A stretch of DNA of 41,298 nucleotides from Halococcus salifodinae DSM 8989 (GTDB lineage Archaea; Halobacteriota; Halobacteria; Halobacteriales; Halococcaceae). The stretch lies in contig NZ_AOME01000027.1 in assembly GCF_000336935.1 (NCBI RefSeq), forward strand, positions 50,728-92,025. Reading direction: 5' to 3'. The position numbers and the translations under genes were made by a program. Each line of letters starts with the position of its first letter. Position 1 is the stretch's first letter. The notes beneath the pieces are model-generated. The model ran no database searches and was not told the DNA's origin. It saw nothing but the letters and a program-made list of their open reading frames with translations. Shown here piece after piece: positions 401-17,264 of the stretch.

Positions 401-2224
401 ATGGAACCCGATGATCTCGTCGGATTCGTTTCAGACGTCACTACCATCGCGCAGGCGCGCTGCGAGCACGCCACGGACTACACCGACATCGAGACCCTGA
501 TCTGTCGACTCCCGACTGCCCATCTCACGTTCACGGCACACGATTCGTTAGCACCGTATTCGGGGCCATATTCGATGGCGTTACTGATCCGAGCGTGCCT
601 GCTCAAGGAAATCAACGGTTGGGACGAAACCGCGCTCCACGACCATCTACGAGCGTATCCCTCGCTCCGACAGGCTCTCGGCTTCGAGTCGCTCCCGGAT
701 CAATCGACGTTGTGGCGCGCGTGGAACGAACGTTTCAGCGAGGAACTACGCGATGCTGTACAGAAGTGTGCTGATGCGGTTGTGATGGCCGCGCGTGCCT
801 GCGAGGTTCCGCTTCCCAACCGAATCAAGACCGAAGAAACGGATGAGCCAGAGGGTGGCGACACTCCCGAACGTCAACTCGTCGCCGCAAAGACCGATGA
901 GGTGTGGCAGCAGGCCAAGCCGTTCGTGACCGACGCGTTCGCGCTCGACCGCGGGCAGAACTGGGAGATCCACGAGAACGCCTTCTGGGAGCAGCACGCC
1001 TACATGGGGATGCGCGAGGACATGTACGCGCGCAGCGGCCCGGCGTCGTTCTCGCTCGATACCACACGCGAACGGATTCCGACGGGATCGACGCATCGTT
1101 ACCAGATCGGCAAGCTCTCGGTCGCGGAGATCCGCTCGATGCTGCGGAACACCACGCGGATGCTGATCGCCCGCGCTCGCCAGAACGGCGAACTCGATGG
1201 GCCGGTCTTTGCGGCCATCGACGTGACCAAGGGGTTCCCGTTCACCGGCGACGTCGAGGACCACGACGACGATATCCTCGGGTACAAGGACGGGAGCGAC
1301 TATTACCAGTGGGCGGTGCTCAAAATCGTCGGGATGGACGTGCCGCTCGTGCTCGACGCCATCCCGCGCGAACGAGGCCAATCGAAAGACGAGATCGTCG
1401 AGAAGCTCCTGTCGCAGGCGACCGAGATGGTTGATATCGATCTCGTGATGATGGACCGCGAGTTCGACAGTGATCCGGTGAAAGACACCTGCGAGGAGTA
1501 CGGCGTCCACTACCTCAACCCGACACGCATCTTCGACCGCAGCGACGAGGCTGACACCATCGCGTGGATGTACCGCAACGGCAAACGCTTCCACGTTACC
1601 GAGGAGGAATCCGATGACGACACCCCGACGCACAAGCAAATCTACCTCCCGAAACGGGCGAGTTCCGATGACGATGAAAACGAAGACGACAGCCTCTCAG
1701 AAGTGTGGACGGAGATGTGCGGCGAGTGGGAGTTCGAGGACGTGGACGGTGAACCAAGCGAACGCATGTCGTTTTCGCGGCTGCTCGCGGACATCCAGCG
1801 CGAAGAAGACATCGAAGAGCGCAAGCAGAAAGCGCAGGACGGAGAGGTGGACACCGCCGAAACCGTCGTCTTCGAGACCAACCACCCCTACGTGACAGCG
1901 CGTGATGCCGACGAAGATCAGATGGACGGGAAGGAATTCATCCACATGATCGAGCGCCTGATCCGGTGGTACCGCCACCGTTGGGGCATCGAGAACGGGT
2001 TCAAGAAACAGAAGCACTTCATGGTGCGGACCACCTCGACCGAGCGCGACTATCGATTCTTCAACTTCGCGTTCGCGTGCGTCCTCTACAACGTCTGGCG
2101 GTTGGTGGACCTGCTCGTGAAGATTGCGATCAACGACGAGAATCGCACGTACACGCCACGAGTGGATGCGAACCAATTCCTGACCGTGGCGAAGCAATAT
2201 TACGGACTCGATCCACCTGACTGA
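401..2224 (+). CDS. IS4-like DDE transposase, family A copy 1
   Basis: This 607-residue protein would catalyse DNA strand transfer. The catalytic triad reads as D274 (AIDVTKGFPF block), D352 (MMDREFD block) and E531 in YRHRWGIENGFKKQK. That last block fits the IS4-family Y-(2)-R-(3)-E-(6)-K signature exactly, starting at Y524. A long acidic insertion lies between D352 and E531. Compared with copies 3 and 4 (664 aa), it lacks about 70 N-terminal residues and starts with an ATG just where homology begins, so it is a truncated left end with a fortuitous start. Whether it is active is unknown. Long frames on the opposite strand are coding shadows. Confidence 0.85.
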   Translation: MEPDDLVGFVSDVTTIAQARCEHATDYTDIETLICRLPTAHLTFTAHDSLAPYSGPYSMALLIRACLLKEINGWDETALHDHLRAYPSLRQALGFESLPDQSTLWRAWNERFSEELRDAVQKCADAVVMAARACEVPLPNRIKTEETDEPEGGDTPERQLVAAKTDEVWQQAKPFVTDAFALDRGQNWEIHENAFWEQHAYMGMREDMYARSGPASFSLDTTRERIPTGSTHRYQIGKLSVAEIRSMLRNTTRMLIARARQNGELDGPVFAAIDVTKGFPFTGDVEDHDDDILGYKDGSDYYQWAVLKIVGMDVPLVLDAIPRERGQSKDEIVEKLLSQATEMVDIDLVMMDREFDSDPVKDTCEEYGVHYLNPTRIFDRSDEADTIAWMYRNGKRFHVTEEESDDDTPTHKQIYLPKRASSDDDENEDDSLSEVWTEMCGEWEFEDVDGEPSERMSFSRLLADIQREEDIEERKQKAQDGEVDTAETVVFETNHPYVTARDADEDQMDGKEFIHMIERLIRWYRHRWGIENGFKKQKHFMVRTTSTERDYRFFNFAFACVLYNVWRLVDLLVKIAINDENRTYTPRVDANQFLTVAKQYYGLDPPD

Positions 2225-3892: not shown

Positions 3893-5032
3893 TCACTCTC
3901 CGTACCGCTCAATTACCGCTTTTGCGAGCGTGTCTTTGTGGCCCTCGTTCGGTCCTCCAGCTATCGTCAGGAGTTTTGCGTCCCGAAGGTAGCGCTCGAC
4001 ATGGTGTTCAGTCGTGTATCCGAGACCACCGTGGAGTTGAACCGCTTTGTTCGCATTGTCAACTGCAGCCTGCGTCGCGTTGATTTTCGCCATGGCAAAC
4101 TCACGGGTCACGTCGTGTCCCTGATCAGCGCGGTCAGCTGCTCGAAGTGTGAGTAATCGAGCGGTGTCGACACGTTCCGCCATCTCGCCAATCTCCCATT
4201 GGACGCCTTGGAAGTCGCTGATGTGCTGGTCGTACTGTTCTCTAGAACTCGTGTAGGCGGCTGTGTCTTCGAGCGCTGCACGCGCGATGCCGACACCGCG
4301 GGCAGGGACGTTCACACCGGTATGAATTTCTCCGCGTGCAACGTAGCCCTCGCCTTCCTCGCCAATGAGCCGATCAGCAGGAACGCGGATATCGTTGAGA
4401 GTGATACGCGGAGATTTGACACTGTTCGCTCCCAGAGTCTCCCAGATTTCATCGACCTCGAATTCCTCGGCCGGGACGAGGAACGCGCTGATGTTGTGCG
4501 GCGCGTCCTCGTCGGGACCGGTTTTGGCGTACGTAAGGACGTAGTCGGCGTTGAGGAAACCCGACACCCACTGTTTGTGGCCGTTGAGAACCCATTCGTC
4601 GTCGTGTTGTGCAGCCGTGGTTTCCATTTCCAGCTTGTTGCTGCCCGCATTCGCTTCACTCTGGCCGAGTACGCCGACTGTTTCGAACGTCGCCATATCG
4701 GGGAGGAACGCTTCGCGTTGCTCATCGGTCCCAAATCGTTCGATGACCGTTGCGACACCGAGATGGAGCCCAATGGTACTTGCTACGGGCATGAGTGCGG
4801 CTGAGAGTTCCTCGATAGCTAAAGTGAGTTCGACGAGACCTTCTCCTCGTCCTCCGTATTCTTCCGGGAGCGTCAGTCCTGGAAGACGACGGTCGCCGAG
4901 TTTATCGAAAATCTCAGCGGGGTATTCCTCCTGCTGGTCCAGTTCTATCGCTTTTGGTTTGATTTCGCTTTTTGCAAACTCCCGAACATCGTCCCGGAGT
5001 GAGCGTTGGTCTTCCGTTAGCCCGAATCTCAT
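3893..5032 (-). CDS. Acyl-CoA dehydrogenase family protein
   Basis: This 379-residue FAD enzyme has the typical N-terminal helical domain (LTEDQRSLRDDVREFAKSEI), a middle beta domain and a C-terminal helical bundle (AVQLHGGLGYTTEHHVERYLRDAK). The family oxidises acyl-CoA thioesters to 2-enoyl-CoA, here feeding electrons to an unseen ETF. The position that usually holds the catalytic Glu (IYEGT) reads TIAGGPNEG, so the canonical base seems absent. The alternative helix-G position (VNVPARGVG) also lacks a Glu. It may therefore act on an unusual substrate or use another residue. An 18-bp palindrome and a TTAAT box lie just upstream, which fits a leaderless, regulated transcript. The tautomerase follows it. 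Confidence 0.85.
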   Translation of the reverse strand: MRFGLTEDQRSLRDDVREFAKSEIKPKAIELDQQEEYPAEIFDKLGDRRLPGLTLPEEYGGRGEGLVELTLAIEELSAALMPVASTIGLHLGVATVIERFGTDEQREAFLPDMATFETVGVLGQSEANAGSNKLEMETTAAQHDDEWVLNGHKQWVSGFLNADYVLTYAKTGPDEDAPHNISAFLVPAEEFEVDEIWETLGANSVKSPRITLNDIRVPADRLIGEEGEGYVARGEIHTGVNVPARGVGIARAALEDTAAYTSSREQYDQHISDFQGVQWEIGEMAERVDTARLLTLRAADRADQGHDVTREFAMAKINATQAAVDNANKAVQLHGGLGYTTEHHVERYLRDAKLLTIAGGPNEGHKDTLAKAVIERYGE

Positions 5033-5067
5033 ACGTAACTGTGGTGGTGATACAGGATTAAGTCTGC

Positions 5068-5085
5068 AACCTGCTATAGCAGGTT
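5068..5085. promoter_or_regulatory. Perfect 18-bp palindrome, candidate operator
   Basis: AACCTGCTATAGCAGGTT equals its own reverse complement. It sits 36-53 bp upstream of the acyl-CoA dehydrogenase ATG, immediately before a TATA-like CTTAAT on the minus strand. That is where an archaeal regulator would affect TFB/TBP loading. The regulator is unknown. Confidence 0.6.
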
Positions 5086-5232
5086 TTCTCGATGTTCGTT
5101 TTGTGCAACATTTATTGGACGGTATTAATCGCTGAGAGGCTCACACCATTGGGCAAGATACATTCACAACAGACAAATTTCTCATACTGAGAGCGTACAA
5201 TACGGAACAGACCGTTTCGATATAACCCACCC

Positions 5233-6417
5233 ATGACACAACGCGATAACCAGTCACATGAGAAACGATTCAGAACGCTCGCTGTCGGGTCGACGAAAGA
5301 TACCTCATCCTCCGAGAAATCTGAACCAAGCGACGTTGTTGCACCGTTGCACCTCTCAAGCACCTTTGAGTGGGCCAGCGAGAACGATGCCAACAAACAC
5401 GATTACTCACGCGAGAGCAACCCGACACGGGCAGCTCTCGAAGAGCAGTTAGCCCGTCTTGAAGGCGGCGAGCACGGGCTAGCGTTCGCCTCAGGGATGG
5501 CTGCTATCTCGACGACGATGCTCTCGCTGGTCCCACCAGGGGGCCACCTCGTCTCGTCAGACTCTCTCTATAGCGGGACCGAGAAACTGCTCACGGAGTT
5601 CGTCGCTGGTCACCTCGGCGTCGACGTTGAGTTTGTCGACGCCCGCGAGCCCGAAAATGTCGCCACGGCAGTCGATTCAAACACCGACTTAATCTGGGCA
5701 GAGACACCGACGAACCCACTGATGCGTCTATGCGACGTTCGCTCGATAGCTGATATCACCCACGATTATGGCGTCCCGGTCGGGGTCGATAGCACCTTCG
5801 CAAGCCCATACTTCCAATCCCCACTCGAACTGGGTGCCGACATTGCCGTCCACAGCACCACCAAGTACCTTAACGGCCACTCCGACTCAATCGGCGGTGC
5901 TGTCGTCACCGACGACGACGAGATCTTCGAGAACCTGGCGTTTGCCCAGCGGATCGGGCTCGGAAACATGCTTTCGCCGTTCGACTGCTACCTCGTCGCG
6001 AGAGGCATCAAGACGCTGCCGGCACGGATGGAGCACCATCAGGAGAACGCGATGGCGATTGCTCATCTCCTCGAGGCCCACGATCGGGTCGCCAGCGTCT
6101 ACTATCCAGGCCTGGAGAGTCACCCACAACACAATCTCGCGGCCGAACAGATGTCGGGATACAGCGGGATGCTTTCCTTCGAATTCGACGGCACGCTTGT
6201 TGAACTCGAGGCGTTCATCGATGGTCTCGAGCTGTTTACCCCAGGGGCTAGTCTCGGTGGCGTCGAGAGCCTCGTCGAGGTGCCGTCGCTGATGATCCCC
6301 GACGAGGTCAGCCACGGGTCGGCCACCGCGGAGATTCCCGAAACTCTGGTCCGGATATCGGTCGGCATCGAAGATGTCGACGACCTATGCGAAGACCTCC
6401 GGACGGCGCTGCCGTAG
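5233..6417 (+). CDS. Cystathionine gamma-synthase / Cys-Met metabolism PLP enzyme
   Basis: This 394-residue fold-type I PLP enzyme has the hallmark HSTTKYLNGHSD motif with the Schiff-base lysine at K211. It also has the SRESNPTRAALEEQLARLEGG region and the ETPTNPLMRL block. Members make or break C-S bonds in cysteine and methionine metabolism (gamma-synthase, gamma-lyase or O-acetylhomoserine sulfhydrylase). Sequence alone does not settle which. The ATG follows a short AT-containing leader. The gene converges with the MOSC gene, and a T-run after the stop (6427-6437) may terminate it. Confidence 0.88.
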   Translation: MTQRDNQSHEKRFRTLAVGSTKDTSSSEKSEPSDVVAPLHLSSTFEWASENDANKHDYSRESNPTRAALEEQLARLEGGEHGLAFASGMAAISTTMLSLVPPGGHLVSSDSLYSGTEKLLTEFVAGHLGVDVEFVDAREPENVATAVDSNTDLIWAETPTNPLMRLCDVRSIADITHDYGVPVGVDSTFASPYFQSPLELGADIAVHSTTKYLNGHSDSIGGAVVTDDDEIFENLAFAQRIGLGNMLSPFDCYLVARGIKTLPARMEHHQENAMAIAHLLEAHDRVASVYYPGLESHPQHNLAAEQMSGYSGMLSFEFDGTLVELEAFIDGLELFTPGASLGGVESLVEVPSLMIPDEVSHGSATAEIPETLVRISVGIEDVDDLCEDLRTALP

Positions 6418-7133: not shown

Positions 7134-9044
7134 TTGAGCGTGTCGTGGTCAGCATCTCGTGTGACTACGGCTCGTGAGGTTCGACAGACTGTCTATCGAC
7201 GAATCGCACGTCGGTCGCACGCCGAAGGGACAGACAACAATCTCAGTGAATTGGTCGCGGCTGTCACCACCATCGCGCAATCGCAGTGCGAACGCGCTAC
7301 GGATTACGCAGATATCGAGATGTTGGTCTCTCGGCTCCCGATTGAGCATCTCACGTTCGCCGCGCACGATTCGTCCGTGCCGTACTCGGGACCGTACCCG
7401 ATGGCGCTACTGGTGCGGGCGTTCATCATTGAGGAGATCAACGGCTTGGACGAAACCGCCCTCCACGACCACCTACGAGCAAATCCGTCACTTCGTCGTG
7501 GACTCGGGTTCGAGACGCTCCCAAACCAATCGACGTTCTGGCGGGCATGGAATCACCGCTTCAGCGAGGCTCTACGCGACGCCGTACAGGAGTGTGCTGA
7601 GGCGATTGTGAAAGCCACATGCGCCTGCGATATCTCCTTACCCGAGCGAGTCAGCACCAGCGAGGCGAGCGAACCAGACTCCGCTGACTGTCCAAAACGC
7701 CAACTGCTCGCACAGAAGACCGACGAGGTGTGGCAACAGGCCAAACCGTTCGTCACCGATGCGTTCGCGCTTAGTCGTGGCCAGAACTGGCAGATTCACG
7801 AGAACGCCTTCTGGGAGCAACACGCCTACATGGGAATGCGTGAGGACATGTATGCCCGTAGCGGTCCAGCCTCGTTCTCACTCGATACCACGCGCGAGCG
7901 CATCCCGACGGGTTCGACCCACCGGTATCAGATCGGCAAGCTCTCGGTTGCGGATATCCGTTCGATGCTTCGCACTACGACGCGAATGCTCATCGCTCGT
8001 GCCTGCCAGCACGATGAACTCACCGGAAAACTCTGGGCAGCCATCGACGTGACCAAGGGCTTCCCGTTCACCGGCGACGCAGACGAACACGAGGACGATA
8101 TTCTGGGGTACAAGAATGGAGGCCAGTATTACCAGTGGGCAGTGCTCAAAATCGTCGGGAAAGACGTTCCGTTGGTGCTCGACGCCATCCCGCGCGTACG
8201 CGGGCAGTCGAAAGATGAGATCGTCGAGAAACTCCTGACGCAAGCGACCGATATGGTGAATCTCGATCTCGTGATGATGGACCGCGAGTTCGACAGCGAG
8301 TCGGTCAAAGACACTTGCGAGGAGTACGGCGTCCACTACCTCAACCCGACGCGCATCTTCACCACCAGCGACGAGGCCGACACCATCAAGTGGATGTACC
8401 GCAACGGTGAACGGTTTCACGTCACCGAAGAGAAAGCCAACGGCACACCGACACGCAAGCAGGTCTACCTCCCGAAACAGTCGCGCTCGGACGATGAGGA
8501 CGAAGACAACGATCTCTCGGAGATATGGCAAGAGATGTGCGGCGAGTGGGAGTTCGACGACGTGGAGGGTGAACCAAGCGAAGGAATGTCGTTCTCACGG
8601 TTGCTCGCGGACATCCAACGCGAAGAGGAAGTCGAAGAGCGTAAGCAGAAAGCAGAGAACGGCGACGTTGACACTGCCGGTACCGTCGTCTTCGAGACGA
8701 ACCACCCCTACGTGACCGCCGGTGACGCCGACGATCAGCAGATGGACGCGAGAGCGTTCGTCCACATGATTGAGCGGCTGATCCGGTGGTATCGCCATCG
8801 TTGGGGCATCGAGAACGGGTTCAAGAAGCAGAAACACTTCATGGTGCGAACCACCTCGACCGAACGCGACTACCGCTTTTTCAATTTCGTGTTCGCGTGC
8901 GTGCTCTACAACGTCTGGCGGCTGGTCGATCTACTGGTGAAACTCGCCATTGACGGTGAGAACCGCACGTACGCACCGCGAGTGGACGCGAATCAGTTCC
9001 TGACCGTCGCCAAGCAGTGCTATGGGCTCGACCCGCCTGACTGA
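7134..9044 (+). CDS. IS4-like DDE transposase, family A copy 2
   Basis: This protein has about 636 residues and the same AIDVTKGFPF, MMDREFD and YRHRWGIENGFKKQK blocks as copy 1 (DDE triad plus YREK signature). The N-terminus before NNLSELVAAVTTIAQ does not match copies 3 and 4. No ATG precedes the conserved region, only TTG/GTG codons (7134, 7140), so the 5' end is probably truncated and fused to unrelated DNA. It is clearly diverged from copies 1, 3 and 4, which implies independent or old insertions. No resolvase lies upstream. It converges with copy 3 on the palindrome at 9201-9271. Confidence 0.85.
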   Translation: MSVSWSASRVTTAREVRQTVYRRIARRSHAEGTDNNLSELVAAVTTIAQSQCERATDYADIEMLVSRLPIEHLTFAAHDSSVPYSGPYPMALLVRAFIIEEINGLDETALHDHLRANPSLRRGLGFETLPNQSTFWRAWNHRFSEALRDAVQECAEAIVKATCACDISLPERVSTSEASEPDSADCPKRQLLAQKTDEVWQQAKPFVTDAFALSRGQNWQIHENAFWEQHAYMGMREDMYARSGPASFSLDTTRERIPTGSTHRYQIGKLSVADIRSMLRTTTRMLIARACQHDELTGKLWAAIDVTKGFPFTGDADEHEDDILGYKNGGQYYQWAVLKIVGKDVPLVLDAIPRVRGQSKDEIVEKLLTQATDMVNLDLVMMDREFDSESVKDTCEEYGVHYLNPTRIFTTSDEADTIKWMYRNGERFHVTEEKANGTPTRKQVYLPKQSRSDDEDEDNDLSEIWQEMCGEWEFDDVEGEPSEGMSFSRLLADIQREEEVEERKQKAENGDVDTAGTVVFETNHPYVTAGDADDQQMDARAFVHMIERLIRWYRHRWGIENGFKKQKHFMVRTTSTERDYRFFNFVFACVLYNVWRLVDLLVKLAIDGENRTYAPRVDANQFLTVAKQCYGLDPPD

Positions 9045-9429
9045 GGCTCGGTCATCCCCTGTGACGCTCGTTCGTGAGCGACAGCTCTATTGGGCGGTTA
9101 TTTGTTTCGTGCTTTGATGCGATGATTCTGAAATTGCGATCCGACTCCATCCACAGCTCATTTCACACACCAAGAAAACAGCTGGAACGAACGCCCAGTC
9201 TGTGCATTCAGCGGCCACCTAGCCGACTTCAGATAGTACCTGAGGTCGGCTAGGTAGCCGCTCAATGCACAGTATGGCTGTTCGTTACAGCCATGATCTG
9301 GACGTATCGAAGAACTCACCGGCGGTGTTGAGTCGTCATCTCGGAATCAGACTTGCGGAGTGGGAAATAAACAAATCCCCGACAGCGCTGCCGCTCACGA
9401 CCCGGCGGCCACGCACGGATGTTCGGGTC
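9045..9429. other. Shared right-end region of convergent copies 2 and 3
   Basis: The left 156 bp are the right end of copy 2 and the right 158 bp are the right end of copy 3 in reverse. They meet at the palindrome 9201-9271. No gene is seen. Both segments keep the family pattern ending near GTGCATT. Confidence 0.6.
9201..9271. repeat. 71-bp near-perfect palindrome shared by two convergent elements
   Basis: The arms 9201-9232 and 9240-9271 match at 29 of 32 positions around the 7-nt loop ATAGTAC. The core is ACCTAGCCGAC/GTCGGCTAGGT and the outer ends are TGTGCATT/AATGCACA. Both arms have the element-type middle (CGGC next to ACCTAGCC), unlike copies 1 and 4, where only the inner arm does. This fits two elements abutting at one palindrome. 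Confidence 0.85.
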
Positions 9430-11424
9430 TCAGTCAGGCGGATCAAGCCCGTAGCACTGCTTGGCCACGGTCAGGAATTGGTTCGCATCGACGCGCGGTG
9501 AGTACGACCGGTTCTCGCCGTCGATGGCGAGTTTCACCAGTAGGTCCACCAGCCGCCAGACGTTATACAGCACGCATGCAAACACGAAGTTGAAGAATCG
9601 ATAGTCGCGTTCGGTCGAGGTGGTTCGCACCATGAAGTGCTTCTGCTTCTTAAAGCCGTTCTCAATACCCCAACGGCGGCGATACCATCGAATGAGTCGC
9701 TCGATCATGTGGATGAACGCCCTCCCGTCCATCTGCTGTTCGTCGGCGTTACTGGCGGTTACGTAGGGGTGATTCGTCTCGAATACCACGGTTTCGCCGG
9801 TGTCCACCTCTCCCTCCTGTGCTTTCTGCTTCCGCTCTTCGACTTCCTCTTCGCGCTGGATGTCCGCGAGCAACCGCGAGAACGACATCCCCTCGCTCGG
9901 TTCGCCCTCCACGTCGTCGAACTCCCACTCACCGCACATCTCCGTCCATACTGCTGAGAGGTCGTCGCCTTCATCCTCGTCGTCCGAGTTCGATTGCTTC
10001 GGGAGGTAGACCTGTTTGCGCGTGGGCGTCCCATCGTCGGCTTTCTCCTCCGTGACATGGAACCGTTCGCCGTTACGGTACATCCACGCGATGGTGTCTG
10101 CTTCGTCGCTATTGGCGAAGATGCGCGTGGGATTCAGATAGTGAACGTCGTACTCCTCGCAAGTGTCCTTGACCGGATCGCTATCGAACTCCCGATCCAT
10201 CATCACGAGGTCGACATCGACCATCTCGGTCGCCTCTGACAGGAGCTTCTCAACGATCTCGTCCTTCGACTGTCCGCGCACGCGCGGGATGGCATCGAGA
10301 ACCAGCGGAACATCCATCCCGACGATCTTGAGTACGGCCCACTGGTAATACTCGTTGCCGTCCTTGTAGCCGAGGATATCGTCCTCGTGGTCCTCCACTT
10401 CGCCGGTGAACGGGAACCCCTTGGTTACGTCGATGGCCGCAAAGACCGGCCCATCGAGTTCACCGTTCTGGCGGGCGCGAGCGATCAACATTCGTGTGGT
10501 GTCTCGCAGCATCTCCCGAATCTCCGTGACGGAGAGCTTCCCGATCTGGTAGCGGTGGGTCGAGCCTGTCGGGATGCGCTCCCGTGTCGTATCAAGCGAG
10601 AATGAGGCGGGGCCGCTTCGAGCGTACATGTCCTCGCGCATCCCCATGTAGGCGTGTTGCTCGAAGAAGGCGTTCTCGTGGATCTGCCAGTTCGGCCCGC
10701 GATCAAGCGCGAAGGCGTCGGTCACGAACGGTTTGGCTTGCTGCCACACCTCGTCGGTCTTCTGGGCTACGAGCTGGTGTTTCGAAGGCTTGTTGGTCTT
10801 GGTTTCGGCCGTTTCGCTGGTGTTGACTCGTTCGGGGAAGGAAACTTCGTTGGCACGCGCGGCCGTGACGATGCTGTCGGCGCACTTCTGTACGGCGTCA
10901 CGCAGGTCCTCGCTGAAACGCTCGTTCCACGCGCGCCAGAACGTCGATTGATTTGGGAGGCTCTCGAACCCGAGATCTCGGCACAGCGAGGGATTCGCTC
11001 GTAGATGGTCGTGGAGCGCAGTCTCATCCCAGCCGTTGATCTTCTCGATGATGAACGCCCGCACCAGTAACGCCATCGGATACGGTCCCGAATACGGTGC
11101 GTGGTCGTCGTGTGACGCAAACGTCAGGCGATCAATCGGGAGCCGACAGACCAACGTCTCGATGTCGGCATAACCCTCGCAATGCTCGCACTGTGACTGG
11201 GCGATGGTCGTGACATCCGCAACGAATCCGTCGAGGGCTTCGCCTCCCCTGTCGAGTTTGCTCTGGAAAAAGTGTGCTTGTTCGTGACGATCGGTGGCAT
11301 CGGCGACGAGAGCCGCTGCAACCATCTCCGTAGTATCGTTCAGCGGTTTTGCGGCGGGTGGTTTCGCGTCGATACGTGCGTCCGTGTCGGGTACGTCCGC
11401 GTCCGACTCTGATTTTGGTGACAT
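9430..11424 (-). CDS. IS4-like DDE transposase, family A copy 3 (full length)
   Basis: This 664-residue protein has its start ATG at 11424, supported by copy 4 having the same length from an equivalent ATG and a similar start (DADxPDxDARID). The N-terminal ~80 residues are polar and variable, followed by VADVTTIAQ and the catalytic blocks AIDVTKGFPF, MMDREFD and YRRRWGIENGFKKQK. The upstream spacer has inverted repeats and leads to a serine resolvase on the same strand. That suggests replicative transposition followed by cointegrate resolution, which is an inference. It is a plausible active copy. Confidence 0.88.
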   Translation of the reverse strand: MSPKSESDADVPDTDARIDAKPPAAKPLNDTTEMVAAALVADATDRHEQAHFFQSKLDRGGEALDGFVADVTTIAQSQCEHCEGYADIETLVCRLPIDRLTFASHDDHAPYSGPYPMALLVRAFIIEKINGWDETALHDHLRANPSLCRDLGFESLPNQSTFWRAWNERFSEDLRDAVQKCADSIVTAARANEVSFPERVNTSETAETKTNKPSKHQLVAQKTDEVWQQAKPFVTDAFALDRGPNWQIHENAFFEQHAYMGMREDMYARSGPASFSLDTTRERIPTGSTHRYQIGKLSVTEIREMLRDTTRMLIARARQNGELDGPVFAAIDVTKGFPFTGEVEDHEDDILGYKDGNEYYQWAVLKIVGMDVPLVLDAIPRVRGQSKDEIVEKLLSEATEMVDVDLVMMDREFDSDPVKDTCEEYDVHYLNPTRIFANSDEADTIAWMYRNGERFHVTEEKADDGTPTRKQVYLPKQSNSDDEDEGDDLSAVWTEMCGEWEFDDVEGEPSEGMSFSRLLADIQREEEVEERKQKAQEGEVDTGETVVFETNHPYVTASNADEQQMDGRAFIHMIERLIRWYRRRWGIENGFKKQKHFMVRTTSTERDYRFFNFVFACVLYNVWRLVDLLVKLAIDGENRSYSPRVDANQFLTVAKQCYGLDPPD

Positions 11425-11544
11425 ACCTATGGCATGTTTCTCACCGGCACCACGGGTTACCCGACAAATGGACGCTGGGCAGTGTCGCCCAGTCGATTAC
11501 GTCCTGTGGTTCGGTGAGTGCTGTGCCATAGGTTGTGTCGGGTA
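11425..11544. promoter_or_regulatory. res-like spacer with paired inverted repeats (copy 3)
   Basis: ACCTATGGCA (11425-11434) pairs with TGCCATAGGT (11524-11533), and TACCCGACA (11458-11466) pairs with TGTCGGGTA (11536-11544). The same four blocks persist in copy 4 while sequence between them diverges. A region of ~120 bp of spaced repeats beside a serine resolvase is what a resolution site looks like. It may also carry the transposase promoter. Confidence 0.5.
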
Positions 11545-11566
11545 TCCGATCGTACCGTAAGCGAGA

Positions 11567-12301
11567 CTATAACCGGTCCGGTTCGTTCCGCGTACTGAGC
11601 GAGGGGAGTTCCTTCTCGCCGGCGTCGACCTTTGCGCGTTCGAGCCGCCACTGCCCATTGTCGAATGGTACGTCGTAGTTCGCCTCAGCTCGTGCGAGGA
11701 TGCTTCGAATCTTCGAGTCGGGTATCTCGAAGAACGCGGCAGTGGCCTTCTTCTCGCGGCCCTTGCGAACCTCGCGGATGAAGTTCTGGACACGAACGTA
11801 CTCGGCGGGCACTTGTTGGAGGAAACCGTCCTCGACGGTGTAGCCGAACGGAGGCCGACCGACACGCTTGCCGTCCGCGATGGCGGCGTCGATTCCCTCC
11901 TGGACGCGCGAGCGAATCATCTTGCGCTCGGCGTCGGCGAACACCATCATCATGTTGAGCATCATCTCGGCCATCCAGTCGTCCTCGCCGACCGTACCGA
12001 TGGGCTGGTTCACGAGGTCGATGTCGACGTCTTTCTCACGGAGATCATCGACGAATCCGGCGAGATCTGCGAATGATCGCCCGAGTCGATCGAGTTCGTG
12101 GGCGACCACCACGTCGTACTCGGCGACGTGCTCGCGGAGACGTTGGTACTCTTGCCGTGAGACAGAGGCTCCGCTCTCTCCAAGATCGCAAAACCACTCG
12201 ATTTGGTTGCCCTCCTCGCTGTACTTCTGGCGGATCGCACGCATCTGGCGATTCTCGTTCTGGTCGTCAGTCGAGACGCGGACGTAGGCGGCGATTTGCA
12301 T
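11567..12301 (-). CDS. Serine-family site-specific recombinase (resolvase)
   Basis: This protein has about 244 residues from the ATG at 12301; a longer frame upstream to 12394 would cross the promoter and is rejected. It starts MQIAAYVRVSTDDQ with the catalytic serine S10 of the resolvase/invertase fold, followed by the DRLGRS motif and a long E-helix region (MMLNMMMVFADAERKMIRSR). The C-terminal part (GRPPFGYTVEDGF onward) is the DNA-binding segment. It would cut and rejoin DNA at short spaced repeats, most likely the spacer before the transposase. A truncated relative follows copy 4, and a decayed one precedes the family C transposase. Confidence 0.9.
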   Translation of the reverse strand: MQIAAYVRVSTDDQNENRQMRAIRQKYSEEGNQIEWFCDLGESGASVSRQEYQRLREHVAEYDVVVAHELDRLGRSFADLAGFVDDLREKDVDIDLVNQPIGTVGEDDWMAEMMLNMMMVFADAERKMIRSRVQEGIDAAIADGKRVGRPPFGYTVEDGFLQQVPAEYVRVQNFIREVRKGREKKATAAFFEIPDSKIRSILARAEANYDVPFDNGQWRLERAKVDAGEKELPSLSTRNEPDRL

Positions 12302-12564: not shown

Positions 12565-12608
12565 TCAGAGTATAACCAAAGAGTATTTTATGCTAACAAG
12601 TGGAGGGG
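12565..12608 (+). promoter_or_regulatory. Promoter and ribosome binding site of the halocin-like operon
   Basis: A TATAA box lies at 12571 and a second AT-rich TATTTTAT at 12584-12591. GGAGGGG (12602-12608) lies 6 nt before the ATG at 12615. This decides for the ATG pair at 12612/12615 over the GTG at 12600, which would overlap the binding site. Confidence 0.5.
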
Positions 12609-12614
12609 TTGATG

Positions 12615-13316
12615 ATGTCTGATAGCGATAAACTGAAGCGGTCAGAGGTCGTAAAGTTCCCCCAGAAACGACGAGGTGCACTTCGCAGTATCGCTATTGG
12701 AGTTGCTTCCACATTAGGAATCAGCGGAACTGCATCTGCGACAGATACGCAGAAGGTGAACCCAGAAGATACTGTACAGGAGTCCCTTAGCGTGGATGTA
12801 GAATCCGCACGAAATGCCTTGAGTGAAGCCAGTACTTCTAGGTTATTCGAACAACTAGCCGAAGACGGATTGATCTCAGAGCAATCAATTGAGGCAATAC
12901 CATTTGATGAAATGGTAGACGATTCGCAGCTGGGAGAGATTGAGCATTTATTGGTTAATGGAAAATTCGAGCAGTATAATTATCATATCTCAGTAGATGG
13001 CGCTCGACTCGAGATCATGCTTCCACTGTCCGATATGGTTCCTGCTGCATTTTTTCATCAGAAAGATGCGCCCGAGATTGTCTACTCCCCCAGCAATGAC
13101 TATCGAGGAGGCGAACTACAAGCCGAATCTTCCACAGCATCTATAGATTCCGAAGTTTCCACGGAGGCCAATCCTTGTGATCCCCCGCTTTTCCGAGGCT
13201 GTACAGGTTGCGTCGCTTGCTGCGGCCTCACCAATTGGTCCAGGGGTGAGGCTAAGCAACCTTGTCCAAATTGTTGGTTGACGAAATGCCACTGGGTTAA
13301 ATCGTACTGCTGCTAA
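12615..13316 (+). CDS. Putative cysteine-rich halocin-like (HalC8-type) precursor
   Basis: The 233-residue precursor has three parts. There is a Tat-like leader (PQKRRGALRS, a hydrophobic stretch, then SGTASA) near residues 18-48, and a ~140-residue acidic middle. The last 46 residues (188-233) hold ten cysteines, including ACC, CPNC and a terminal YCC. Halocin C8 is known to be released from the C-terminus of a Tat-exported precursor, has ten cysteines, and its precursor N-terminal part gives immunity. The architecture matches, although I cannot show sequence homology and the cysteine domain is shorter. The gene is visibly AT-richer than its surroundings, sits between two family A elements, and is followed after 9 bp by a membrane protein gene. 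It could instead be another secreted disulfide-rich peptide. Confidence 0.55.
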   Translation: MSDSDKLKRSEVVKFPQKRRGALRSIAIGVASTLGISGTASATDTQKVNPEDTVQESLSVDVESARNALSEASTSRLFEQLAEDGLISEQSIEAIPFDEMVDDSQLGEIEHLLVNGKFEQYNYHISVDGARLEIMLPLSDMVPAAFFHQKDAPEIVYSPSNDYRGGELQAESSTASIDSEVSTEANPCDPPLFRGCTGCVACCGLTNWSRGEAKQPCPNCWLTKCHWVKSYCC

Positions 13317-13325
13317 ACAATTCGC

Positions 13326-14114
13326 ATGGCTTCTACTGAGGCAAGCGTTGTTAACAAGCTTCGTCAGCCAGAATACACTGGAGAAAATAGATGTTATCCA
13401 TGCACATATCTTAATGTATTCATATCTGTGATCCTATCCTCATTTATAGGTCTATTTGTTTCCCCACCCACTGGAGGTATTGCTCTTGTTCTTTCACTCG
13501 TTGTGATTTATCTGAGAGGTTATATCATTCCAGGTACACCAACAATCACGCAGCAATATTTTCCCGATCGGGTGTTACAATGGTTCGGAAAGGCACAATC
13601 TGCAGACAAGGATGTTGCGAAAGTGTCTAACGAAGTCATAGATAGCGATCTCATAGAATATAGTGAGAAATTAGAGGATCTCAAGCTTGTGGATGAAGTC
13701 AAGAACCGTTGGCATACCGAAATTCGCAAGGCAGATCAGGAAGTGGTTGAGCACCGGTTAAAATCTCTGACAAAATCTGATGAAGTGGAACTAAGAGAGG
13801 CTGATGGAGTCGCCTATGTAATGGCAGACAACGAAATGGTTCTTCAACGTCGCTCACGACCTGCGATTGTTGCAGATATCGCAATCCTGCCGATATTATC
13901 TGTGAAACTTCCTTCATGGGAAAGGTATTCCCTAAACGAAAAGTCTGATGCTATGAGGGTTGTACGTATGTTCATGGACGATTGTCCTGCCTGTGGTTCT
14001 GATCTTACACTCGATCAGACGGCAGTTGAAAGTTGCTGTACAAGCAAAGAGGTGTATACGCTCTCTTGTCCAGAATGCAAGACACAAATGTCAGAGATGC
14101 CAGTTGCAGATTGA
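13326..14114 (+). CDS. Membrane protein with C-terminal zinc ribbon, halocin-cluster partner
   Basis: This 262-residue protein has an N-terminal ENRCYPCTYLN motif followed by two hydrophobic segments (residues ~28-65) and a PGTPTITQQYFPDRVLQWFGK stretch. I recall that stretch from other haloarchaeal small-membrane-protein families of unknown role. The middle is charged and helical. The end has CPACG and CPEC knuckles (residues ~218-256), a zinc ribbon. It begins 9 bp after the precursor stop, so translation is probably coupled. Immunity, export or maturation of the cysteine-rich product are reasonable guesses; none is demonstrated. Codon use is as AT-rich as the upstream gene. Confidence 0.6.
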   Translation: MASTEASVVNKLRQPEYTGENRCYPCTYLNVFISVILSSFIGLFVSPPTGGIALVLSLVVIYLRGYIIPGTPTITQQYFPDRVLQWFGKAQSADKDVAKVSNEVIDSDLIEYSEKLEDLKLVDEVKNRWHTEIRKADQEVVEHRLKSLTKSDEVELREADGVAYVMADNEMVLQRRSRPAIVADIAILPILSVKLPSWERYSLNEKSDAMRVVRMFMDDCPACGSDLTLDQTAVESCCTSKEVYTLSCPECKTQMSEMPVAD

Positions 14115-14182
14115 TTTATGCATCTAACAAATTGTAACACAGTCTTTGACAGAATAAAAATGGCGGGGAAAAGCTAGAAAAC

Positions 14183-14665
14183 ATGTACGAAGCAACAAAC
14201 GTTCATCTTGGCGACTACACCGACGAGAGCAATAATAAGAAAATCACTTGCACCGACGAAGAAATTCGCCATATTGACGCCGAACGTAAGGAGCCAACCA
14301 TTGAAACCATCCCTGTTGATGAGATTGCAGAAATCAGGCGAGATACCGACAAGTCTCAGGCAGGTTTCAAACGCATTGGCTATGCGTTCGCAGGGTTTGG
14401 ACTCATATTCACGTTCATGTCTGTTCCGTTCCTGCTAGCAGGCGTATTCAACCCTATTGCTGGCGGATCGTACCTTTCAGCCGTCCTCTGCTGGTTCGGG
14501 TTTTGGATGTTCTACAGAATGGAGCGAGGGATTCTTGATGTCCTCGAAATCCGAGTCGAAAACGATTGGTATCATTTCTTCACAAAGAAAGAAGGCACAA
14601 CTTTCGACGAGATTCTGTCTCGTCTCCCCCACGATGTCGTGAATAGATCCACTGGTCCTGATTAA
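14183..14665 (+). CDS. Small two-helix membrane protein, possible immunity factor
   Basis: I do not recognise this 160-residue protein. The N-terminal ~70 residues are polar and strand-like (CTDEEIRHIDAE, ETIPVDEIAEIRRD), in the style of a membrane-anchored PH-like fold. Two transmembrane segments follow at ~72-96 and ~101-119, then a short C-terminal polar part (ENDWYHFFTKKEG). It lies 68 bp after the zinc-ribbon membrane protein on the same strand and shares its low G+C. Its place as third gene of the cluster makes it a candidate immunity protein, which is inference only. Confidence 0.6.
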   Translation: MYEATNVHLGDYTDESNNKKITCTDEEIRHIDAERKEPTIETIPVDEIAEIRRDTDKSQAGFKRIGYAFAGFGLIFTFMSVPFLLAGVFNPIAGGSYLSAVLCWFGFWMFYRMERGILDVLEIRVENDWYHFFTKKEGTTFDEILSRLPHDVVNRSTGPD

Positions 14666-14680
14666 CCCCCCTAGAGTCGG

Positions 14681-14820
14681 GGCAGGTGAATTTCTCAGAC
14701 CCAGAGTATTCGAAATCAACCTCACTGTCTCAAATATCCCAGATGGCTATGCCTGATTTCAGACTGGAATCAGGCAGGTAGATTTCTCATATATGCCGAA
14801 TCCAAAATCAACCCCACAAA
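14681..14820. repeat. Imperfect ~47-bp direct repeat and a degenerate palindrome
   Basis: Unit 1 (14681-14727) and unit 2 (14773-14819) both start GGCAGGT, continue with ATTTCTCA, and end AATCAACC-T/C-CAC, 92 bp apart. Between them GCCTGATT (14751-14758) pairs with AATCAGGC (14768-14775). Read on the minus strand, 14773-14796 matches the host-side palindrome arm beside the IS110 element (27999-28022) at about 21 of 24 positions. This is probably a remnant of earlier insertions or of the same palindromic repeat family. Confidence 0.5.
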
Positions 14821-14840
14821 CTAAATTTCGGACGTGATTA

Positions 14841-14906
14841 TGCATGAGAGATGTACCTAGCCGACTTCAGATAGTACTGATGTCGGCTAGGTAGCCGATC
14901 AATGCA
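14841..14906. repeat. Long palindrome at right end of family A copy 4
   Basis: The arms 14841-14870 and 14877-14906 surround the loop ATAGTA. The core is TACCTAGCCGAC/GTCGGCTAGGTA and the outer ends are TGCAT/ATGCA. The copy-4-side arm has the element-type middle (CCGATCA next to ATGCA). The island-side arm has the host type (GAGAGATG). Confidence 0.82.
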
Positions 14907-15065
14907 CGGATCGGGCGTTCGTTTCGTCTATTTTCTCAGCGTGATAAACAGTCGCTGATCAATCTCGGGTCGACATCTCGGAATCACCCGATCAGGCTGT
15001 GAAATGAACGCCCCCTGAACAGTGCCGCTGCTCACGAGTCGGGCGAACACGGAAGAGTATCGGCG

Positions 15066-17060
15066 TCAGTCAGGCGGATCGAGACCGTAGAACTGCTTGG
15101 CGACGGTCAGGAACTGGTTCGCATCAACCTGCGGTGCATACGACCGGTTTTCGCCGTCGATGGCGAGTTTTACCAACAGATCGACGAGCCGCCAGACGTT
15201 GTAGAGGACGCACGCGAACACGAAGTTGAAGAACCGATAGTCGCGCTTGGTCGAGGTGGTCCGCACCATGAAATGCTTCTGCTTCTTGAAGCCATTCTCG
15301 ATACCCCAACGACGGCGATACCACCGAATCAGCCGCTCGATCATGTGGATGAACGCTCTTCCGTCCATCTGCTGATCACCGGCGTCACGCGCTGTCACGT
15401 AGGGATGGTTCGTCTCGAACACCACTGTCTCGGATGTATCCACGTCTCCATCCTGCGCTTTCTGCTTGCGGTCTTCGATATCTTCCTCACGCTGAATGTC
15501 CGCGAGCAACCGTGAGAACGACATACACTCGCTCGGTTCACCCTCCACGTCCTCGAACTCCCACTCACCGCACATCTCCCTCCACACCTCTGAGAGGCTG
15601 TCATCCTCATCATCGTCGTCCGAATTCGACCGCTGCGGAAGGTAAATCTGCTTGCGTGTGGGCGTCCCGTCGTCGGAATCTTCCTCGGTAACGTGGAAAC
15701 GGTTGCCGTTGCGGTACATCCACGCGATGGTCTCGGCCTCGTCGCTGCGGTCGAAGATGCGCGTCGGGTTCAGGTAGTGAACGTCGTGCTCCTCACAGGT
15801 CTTCTTGACGGGCTTGCTGTCGAACTCGCGGTCCATCATCACGAGGTCGATGTCAACCATCTCGGTCGCCTGTGACAGGAGTTTCTCAACGATCTCGTCT
15901 TTCGACTGACCGCGCACGCGCGGAATGGCGTCGAGCACGAGCGGCACGTCCATGCCGACGATTTTCAGCACCGCCCACTGGTAGTAGTCGCTACCGTCCC
16001 TGTACCCGAGGATGTCGTCCTCGTGGTCCGCTATGTCGCCGGTGAACGGGAAGCCCTTGGTTACATCGACGGCCGCGAAGACCGATCCGTCGAGCTCACC
16101 GTTCTGGCGGGCACGGGCGATCAGCATCCGGGTAGTGTTGCGTAGCATCTCCCGAATCTCCGCGACCGAGAGCTTGCCAATCTGGTAGCGGTGGGTCGAA
16201 CCCGTCGGGATACGCTCGCGGGTGGTATCGAGCGAGAACGACGCCGGGCCGCTCCGGGCATACATATCCTCGCGCATCCCCATGTAGGCGTGCTGCTCCC
16301 AGAAAGCGTTCTCGTGGATCTGCCAGTTCGACCCGCGATCGAGCGCGAACGCGTCGGTCACGAACGGCTTGGCCTGCTGCCACACCTCGTCGGTCTTCTC
16401 GGCGACGAGCTGGTGTTCGGAAGGTTCGTCGGCGTCTGGTTCATCCGCTTCGCCACTACCGATCCGGTCCGGAAGCGGGACTTCGCAGGCACAGGCAGCC
16501 CTCACAATCGCGTCAGCACACTCCTGTACGGCATCGTGCAGGTCCGCGCCGAAGCGTTCGTTCCATCCCCGCCAGAGCGTCGATTGGTCCGGAAGCGTCT
16601 CGAATCCCAGATCTTGGCGAAGCGCGGGATTCGCCCGCAGGTGGTCGTGGAGAGCGGTCTCGTCCCAGCCGTTGATCTCCTCGATCATGAACGCCCGCAC
16701 CAGGACCGCCATCGGGTACGGTCCCGAGTACGGCGCTAACGAATCGTGCGCGGCGAACGTGAGGTGGTCGAGCGGCAGGTCACAGACCAGCGTCTCGATG
16801 TCGGCGTAGTCCGTGGCGTGCTCGCAGCGTGCCTGCGCGATGGTAGTGACGTCCGCGACGAACTCGCCGAGATCGTCGCCTGCCCCGTCTGATTCGCTGT
16901 CGAAAACCCGCGACTGTTCGGGGTGGCCGTTGGTGGTGTTGGCGAGAATCGGTGGGTCCGTCCTCGTGGCCTCGTTCGGTCGGTCTTCGGCCAGTGACTG
17001 CGTGTCGATGCGTGCGTCCATGTCGGGTGAATCCGCGTCCGACGCTGAGTTCGTACCCAT
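15066..17060 (-). CDS. IS4-like DDE transposase, family A copy 4 (full length)
   Basis: This 664-residue protein starts at the ATG at 17060, because the resulting N-terminus (MGTNSASDADSPDMDARID) aligns with copy 3. A longer frame to 17135 would run into the res-like spacer. It has the DDE blocks AVDVTKGFPF, MMDREFD and YRRRWGIENGFKKQK with the YREK signature. Its companion resolvase is broken, so resolution would need copy 3 or another source. A frame-perfect 664-aa reading suggests the gene is recently functional. Confidence 0.88.
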   Translation of the reverse strand: MGTNSASDADSPDMDARIDTQSLAEDRPNEATRTDPPILANTTNGHPEQSRVFDSESDGAGDDLGEFVADVTTIAQARCEHATDYADIETLVCDLPLDHLTFAAHDSLAPYSGPYPMAVLVRAFMIEEINGWDETALHDHLRANPALRQDLGFETLPDQSTLWRGWNERFGADLHDAVQECADAIVRAACACEVPLPDRIGSGEADEPDADEPSEHQLVAEKTDEVWQQAKPFVTDAFALDRGSNWQIHENAFWEQHAYMGMREDMYARSGPASFSLDTTRERIPTGSTHRYQIGKLSVAEIREMLRNTTRMLIARARQNGELDGSVFAAVDVTKGFPFTGDIADHEDDILGYRDGSDYYQWAVLKIVGMDVPLVLDAIPRVRGQSKDEIVEKLLSQATEMVDIDLVMMDREFDSKPVKKTCEEHDVHYLNPTRIFDRSDEAETIAWMYRNGNRFHVTEEDSDDGTPTRKQIYLPQRSNSDDDDEDDSLSEVWREMCGEWEFEDVEGEPSECMSFSRLLADIQREEDIEDRKQKAQDGDVDTSETVVFETNHPYVTARDAGDQQMDGRAFIHMIERLIRWYRRRWGIENGFKKQKHFMVRTTSTKRDYRFFNFVFACVLYNVWRLVDLLVKLAIDGENRSYAPQVDANQFLTVAKQFYGLDPPD

Positions 17061-17176
17061 GGCATGTTCGTCACCGTCACCACGAGTCACCCGACAGGCG
17101 GACGCTGGGCGGTCCCTCTCCTTACGCGCGTCCACTGTGGTGCGGTGAGTGTTGTGCCATAGGTTTCTGTCGGGTA
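17055..17176. promoter_or_regulatory. res-like spacer (copy 4)
   Basis: It keeps the blocks ACCCATGGCA (17055-17064), CACCCGACA (17088-17096), TGCCATAGGT (17155-17164) and TGTCGGGTA (17168-17176) in the same order and nearly the same spacing as copy 3. The sequence between them differs. Conservation of only the repeat blocks argues they are bound by protein. Confidence 0.5.
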
Positions 17177-17264
17177 CTCTGACCGTCCCGCCATCAGATT
17201 ATAATCGATTCGGTTCCTCTCCGGCAGCGGACTGGTTCCGAGCGCTCCCCTCCTCCGCTGGCGA

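Follow-up and report, generated by a model that had tools for sequence, protein, structure and literature searches.

To our knowledge, few antimicrobial peptides are known from archaea; among those that are rich in cysteine, halocin C8 is the principal example. The halocin C8 peptide contains ten cysteines, and a 2019 survey of archaeal toxins in mBio reportedly extended the halocin C8 family. HmHapP (HFX_0892) is a secreted haloarchaeal precursor from which extracellular serine proteases release an antagonistic peptide; the active part of HmHapP is its alpha-helical N terminus, and cysteine is absent from the text of the paper (PMC12893001). Here, we describe a locus of Halococcus salifodinae DSM 8989 in which the first gene (ORF1) may encode a Tat-exported, disulfide-rich precursor of the microhalocin type and the second gene (ORF2) a candidate immunity or maturation protein. 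This was the best overall explanation of our data, and we held it with about even confidence.

The window (the whole 41,298-nucleotide stretch of DNA that was analyzed) contained three ORFs on the same (+) strand, namely, ORF1 (positions 12615 to 13316), ORF2 (13326 to 14114), and ORF3 (14183 to 14665). The gap between ORF1 and ORF2 was 9 bp, and the gap between ORF2 and ORF3 was 68 bp. The three ORFs were located between two transposase copies with about 80% DNA identity (9217 to 11584 and 14855 to 17216). The G+C contents of ORF1 and ORF2 were 48% and 43%, respectively, versus 59 to 62% for the flanking transposase copies. Because this AT-rich island was placed between two transposase copies, it looked like mobile cargo. 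In all, four related ISH-type transposase copies were present in the window (401 to 2224, 7134 to 9044, 9430 to 11424, and 15066 to 17135); they showed 80 to 82% DNA identity, were found in both orientations, and included the two that bracketed ORF1 to ORF3.

The preliminary description of this DNA had treated the three genes as one operon and had named both downstream genes as candidates for export, processing, or immunity. The three-gene operon did not hold up. ORF3, which encodes a 160-amino-acid protein with two hydrophobic stretches, had relatives in 12 of the 391 genomes sampled, and its nearest copies (on contig C51 of the same genome and in a congener) had no ORF1 or ORF2 relative nearby; we therefore rejected ORF3 as an operon member and left it out of the unit. 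The earlier grouping was supported for ORF2, which proved to be a recurrent partner, and not for ORF3.

ORF1 was called as an open reading frame encoding a protein of 233 amino acids, a call that its family supported. Translation could start at an in-frame ATG at position 12612 or 12615, and a GTG at position 12600 was also possible. A Shine-Dalgarno-like sequence, GGAGGGG (12602 to 12608, + strand), was located directly before the ATG codons. Residues 1 to 42 (12615 to 12740) comprised a putative Tat-type leader (KRRGALR...GTASA) with the sequence KRRGALRSIAIGVASTLGISGTASA; the TAT_signal models did not report ORF1, and the leader was assigned by sequence motif. The conserved middle domain (residues ~50 to 170; 12762 to 13124) contained helices and beta strands, and the acidic middle of the protein had a net charge of −22 over 133 residues and no cysteine. 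All ten cysteines (residues 188, 196, 199, 202, 203, 217, 220, 225, 232, and 233) were in the 46-residue tail (13176 to 13313), which ended in CC and is the predicted mature disulfide-rich peptide. The tail had a net charge of about +3, and its cleavage would yield a peptide of about 5 kDa, which would fall below the 10-kDa limit of the microhalocins. Thus, the ORF1 sequence confirmed the Tat-like leader, acidic middle, and ten-cysteine, CC-ending tail that had been described previously.

In the AlphaFold model of ORF1, the middle domain (residues 50 to 170) had pLDDT values that were mostly 86 to 96, and the leader and tail were without structure. Fold comparison of the model with the PDB yielded no similar solved structure, and searches of Pfam and NCBIfam with the whole protein and with the tail yielded nothing above the cut-offs. 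With ORF1 alone as the query, relatives with 52%, 51%, and 45% identity were found in genomes G303, G058, and G383, respectively, and weaker ones were found elsewhere. Because relatives in other genera (44 to 52% identity) retained both the middle domain and the tail, sequence conservation indicated that ORF1 is a real gene.

To define the family, we searched a sample of 391 haloarchaeal genomes. A profile of 18 sequences identified about 70 full-length members, distributed over about 40 of the 391 genomes. When 62 selected genomes were searched with a profile that lacked the tail and leader, 77 places were found, and 38 of these genomes had a match. We put the family at about 80 members, spread over about 40 of the 391 genomes, a figure that combines the full-length members with the later tail-free finds and describes the sample rather than a census. 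The middle domains of all members were related and were predicted with confidence, whereas the cysteine-rich tails, of about 50 residues, were variable; a Tat-like leader was recognizable in 58 of 68 members. Judging from the sequence searches, the family is unnamed and has no Pfam or NCBIfam model. A peptide-pattern search of public named genomes returned nothing, plasmid records returned no ORF1 match, and viral contigs returned no relative. One locus (L163) carried three different precursors in tandem, followed by an ORF2 relative. The close ORF1 relative in G303 (L154, 6035 to 6667) had two stop codons in the tail, an intact middle domain, and no ORF2 nearby.

Family comparisons indicated that the tail is the variable part of these proteins. 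The tails could not be aligned across subgroups, and the cysteine spacing differed between subgroups; from the first cysteine to the end, the tails had a median span of 48 residues and contained 4 to 22 cysteines. In tandem paralogues (L278 and L174), 58 to 60% of the middle domain was shared, versus 9 to 21% of the non-cysteine tail residues. In orthologous pairs, the tails were conserved about as well as the middle domain. In contrast to spacing, cysteine parity was nearly constant: the number was even in 69 of 69 family members and in 47 of 47 nonredundant tails, versus 101 even and 47 odd among other genes from the same regions with at least six cysteines. At the rate of the comparison genes, the probability of all-even tails by chance was about 2e-8. 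A held-out test gave a similar picture, as each of the ten places that the tail-free profile alone detected had a cysteine-rich tail, and the count was even in eight of them. The other two, which were related to each other and had long tails, contained 17 and 21 cysteines (L342, 1158 to 1973, and L343, 1100 to 1990); no other member had an odd number. A near-universal even count is the outcome that disulfide pairing would produce. We consider it quite probable that ORF1 is the precursor of an exported disulfide-rich peptide, for which we infer both the cleavage and the disulfides.

Genes within 2.5 kb of 66 precursor loci, as called by a simple codon-score caller, were then counted. An ABC-2 permease family was present at 13 of the 66 loci versus 1.2 expected from other regions (about 11-fold), and an ABC-2 ATPase was present at 16 versus 4.9 expected. 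The associated ATPase resembled DrrA and lantibiotic-protection ATPases at scores below their cut-offs. A 296-residue protein without a family match (e.g., L168, 4558 to 5448) adjoined 7 of the 66 precursor genes and none of the background regions. ABC exporters and a shared partner gene beside a precursor form a layout that is associated with bacteriocin immunity. Together, the ABC-2 transporters, the neighbors shared with halocin C8-like genes (see below), and the variability of the tails suggested that the ORF1 peptide may be antagonistic, a reading on which our judgment was evenly balanced.

Another reading is that ORF1 is a secreted signaling or cell surface disulfide protein, such as a pheromone, a mating or self-recognition factor, or an S-layer cross-linker, and that no toxin is involved. 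Variable tails on a constant domain would fit the distinction of self from nonself, and many members had no dedicated partner. In addition, most family tails were acidic (median charge of −6), unlike classic antimicrobial peptides, which are cationic. However, the enrichment of ABC-2 exporters, the ORF2 relatives held in common with halocin C8-like genes, and the patchy distribution and mobile setting of the family argued against this role, which we consider rather unlikely.

We judged it a little less likely again that ORF1 is a secreted metal-binding protein (metallothionein-like or zinc/copper-binding) used for metal capture or tolerance. The ORF1 tail contains CPNC, which resembles a zinc knuckle, and some family tails pack 20 to 22 cysteines into a span of about 50 residues, where CC and CxC motifs are numerous. 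Yet the cysteine number, while even, was in many cases not divisible by four (6, 10, 14, and 22) in unrelated tails, the spacing varied by subgroup, and no metal-transport gene was among the recurrent neighbors. None of 65 family members matched a Pfam or NCBIfam zinc family, and known metal-binding families likewise gave no match. The preliminary description had stated that homology of the tail to a structural zinc domain of nonsecreted proteins would refute its proposal; the searches revealed no such homology, and the leaders counted above pointed to export. A disulfide-rich peptide thus remained our preferred reading of ORF1.

ORF2 (+ strand) encodes a 262-amino-acid, two-helix membrane protein with a C-terminal zinc ribbon, in agreement with the zinc-ribbon membrane protein noted earlier, and is a candidate immunity or maturation partner. 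The two adjacent helices were at residues 24 to 44 and 47 to 64, an N-terminal CxxC (residues 23 to 26) was invariant, and the zinc-ribbon-like CPxC...CxxC was at residues 220 to 251 (13983 to 14078, + strand). The conserved features of the family were an N-terminal NRCxPCT, the two helices, RGYLVPGTP, and the C-terminal CPxC...CxxC. Relatives were found in 358 of the 391 haloarchaeal genomes (92%), with one to nine copies each, and none was found in phage records. No Pfam family covered ORF2, and the window member had no NCBIfam match. A PADLOC match to JetA (E of 0.001, part of the protein) was judged to be due to chance. The structure model of ORF2 had a pLDDT of 90 and no match in the PDB; because neither ORF1 nor ORF2 matched a solved fold, no structure-based mechanism is suggested.

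The ORF2 family was found at 8 of the 66 precursor loci, the window included, versus about 0.3 to 0.5 expected. For six independent cases versus 0.5 expected, the Poisson probability was about 1e-5; this expectation was our estimate from copy counts and assumed a deliberately high density, with five ORF2 genes in every 3.5 Mb. An early list of cysteine-rich ORF2 neighbors included several frame artifacts, and these artifacts were excluded from the counts. In a tree of 95 ORF2 sequences, the window ORF2 was sister to the ORF2 of G058 (100/88), and these two grouped with the precursor-adjacent copies of G050 and G089 (97/90). The ORF1 relative of G058 had the same tail type as the window ORF1, and both genes were mutually closest relatives. 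Precursor association required 7 changes on the tree versus 11.4 in shuffles, and 0 of 500 shuffles were as low. Thus, ORF2 is a genuine recurrent partner of ORF1-type precursors.

The idea that ORF2 is always coupled to a precursor was rejected, as only about 5 of 90 sampled copies were so placed. Because the remaining copies (about 85 of 90) had no precursor neighbor, the ORF2 family is not solely a partner of precursor genes unless its members are mostly orphans. These unaccompanied copies, the wide distribution of the family, and the close ORF1 relatives in G383 and G303 that had no adjacent ORF2 would fit the view that ORF2 is a membrane protein of general occurrence in haloarchaea, placed downstream by chance, and that ORF1 acts alone. 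Nevertheless, the excess of ORF2 relatives at precursor loci, the clustering of precursor-adjacent copies on the tree, and the pairing of both genes in the window and G058 made such a chance placement improbable.

ORF2 relatives also adjoined halocin C8-like genes, in L120 (on the same strand and with the same 9-bp gap as in the window) and in L150. On megaplasmid 2 of Halobacterium sp. GN101 (L242, 2551 to 3441), a halocin C8-like gene was divergent from a degenerate ORF2 relative; in the NRC-34001 records, this halocin C8-like gene was matched only in part, in two places. Haloferax larsenii pHl5678-1 (L241, 2974 to 3855) and L181 carried genes for a Tat protein with a hydrophobic cysteine-rich tail (CGLALGECLASGAGCVACSSTCAG...) that were divergent from ORF2 relatives, and this Tat protein had no family match. 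Contig C68 of the source genome (L107) contained a halocin C8-like gene (13918 to 14856) with a four-helix membrane gene downstream; 8 kb away, a gene for a cysteine-rich Tat protein (4845 to 5780) was divergent from an ORF2 relative.

TIGR04449 (membership cut-off of 24 bits) did not match ORF1 at an E value of ≤10, and three halocin C8-like positive controls (L025, L120, and L242) matched at about 1e-12. An hhalign comparison of about 64 ORF1-family middle domains with 47 halocin C8 N-domains (HalI-like) gave a probability of 0.6% over 13 columns, and the tail-free profile matched neither the halocin C8-like genes of G000 nor those of G112. Early weak profile matches to halocin C8-like precursors were set aside as mostly due to the Tat leader and not to shared homology. 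Given these results, and at the sensitivity of these comparisons, we rejected the reading of ORF1 as a divergent halocin C8 family member, which is very improbable even though the parts (Tat leader, acidic middle, and ten-cysteine tail) occur in the same order. ORF1 plausibly represents a separate class. The preliminary description was right that the cysteine spacing is unlike that of halocin C8, the halocin C8-like layout that it saw was supported, and its suggestion of a new class is plausible in light of the TIGR04449 and middle-domain comparisons.

In the proposal that we favor, the Tat leader would export the ORF1 pre-pro-peptide, with signal cleavage after ASA, and the middle domain would carry the tail, act as its chaperone, or inhibit it as a pro-domain. 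Once outside, the 46-residue tail would be freed, possibly by a protease that acts extracellularly, would fold with up to five disulfides, and would antagonize related haloarchaea. ORF2, which would be membrane anchored and made from the same unit, would most likely confer immunity, with maturation as the second choice; we put forward the immunity role tentatively, at somewhat less than even confidence. The mostly acidic tails, the two odd-cysteine members, the unaccompanied ORF2 copies, and the lack of a solved-fold match for either protein count against the proposal. An unmodeled family of this size, with one carrier domain and very different tails, would supply a ready list of peptides for testing, and the antagonistic reading, if true, would give a candidate role to a family present in 92% of the sampled haloarchaeal genomes. 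A more speculative and doubtful possibility is a polymorphic haloarchaeal arsenal, in which one Tat-exported carrier domain bears many unrelated disulfide-rich peptides, ORF2-type proteins provide immunity for this class and for halocin C8-like peptides, and most of the immunity genes are orphans.

In the case of halocin C8, the precursors are haloarchaeal and, like ORF1, have a Tat leader, a long acidic middle, and a ten-cysteine C-terminal region, and some halocin C8-like loci have an ORF2-type neighbor. The tails of halocin C8-like proteins are hydrophobic and less diverse, whereas those of the ORF1 family are polar and highly variable, and the sequence, spacing, and middle domain are unrelated. 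HmHapP (PMC12893001) may serve as a model for processing, but its peptide is apparently of a different kind. Disulfide-rich bacteriocins and defensin-like peptides showed no sequence or fold homology to ORF1, which differs from them in its Tat export and its folded pro-domain of about 120 residues, but they resemble the ORF1 family in their small size, even cysteine number, variable part on a conserved precursor, and nearby immunity or ABC genes.
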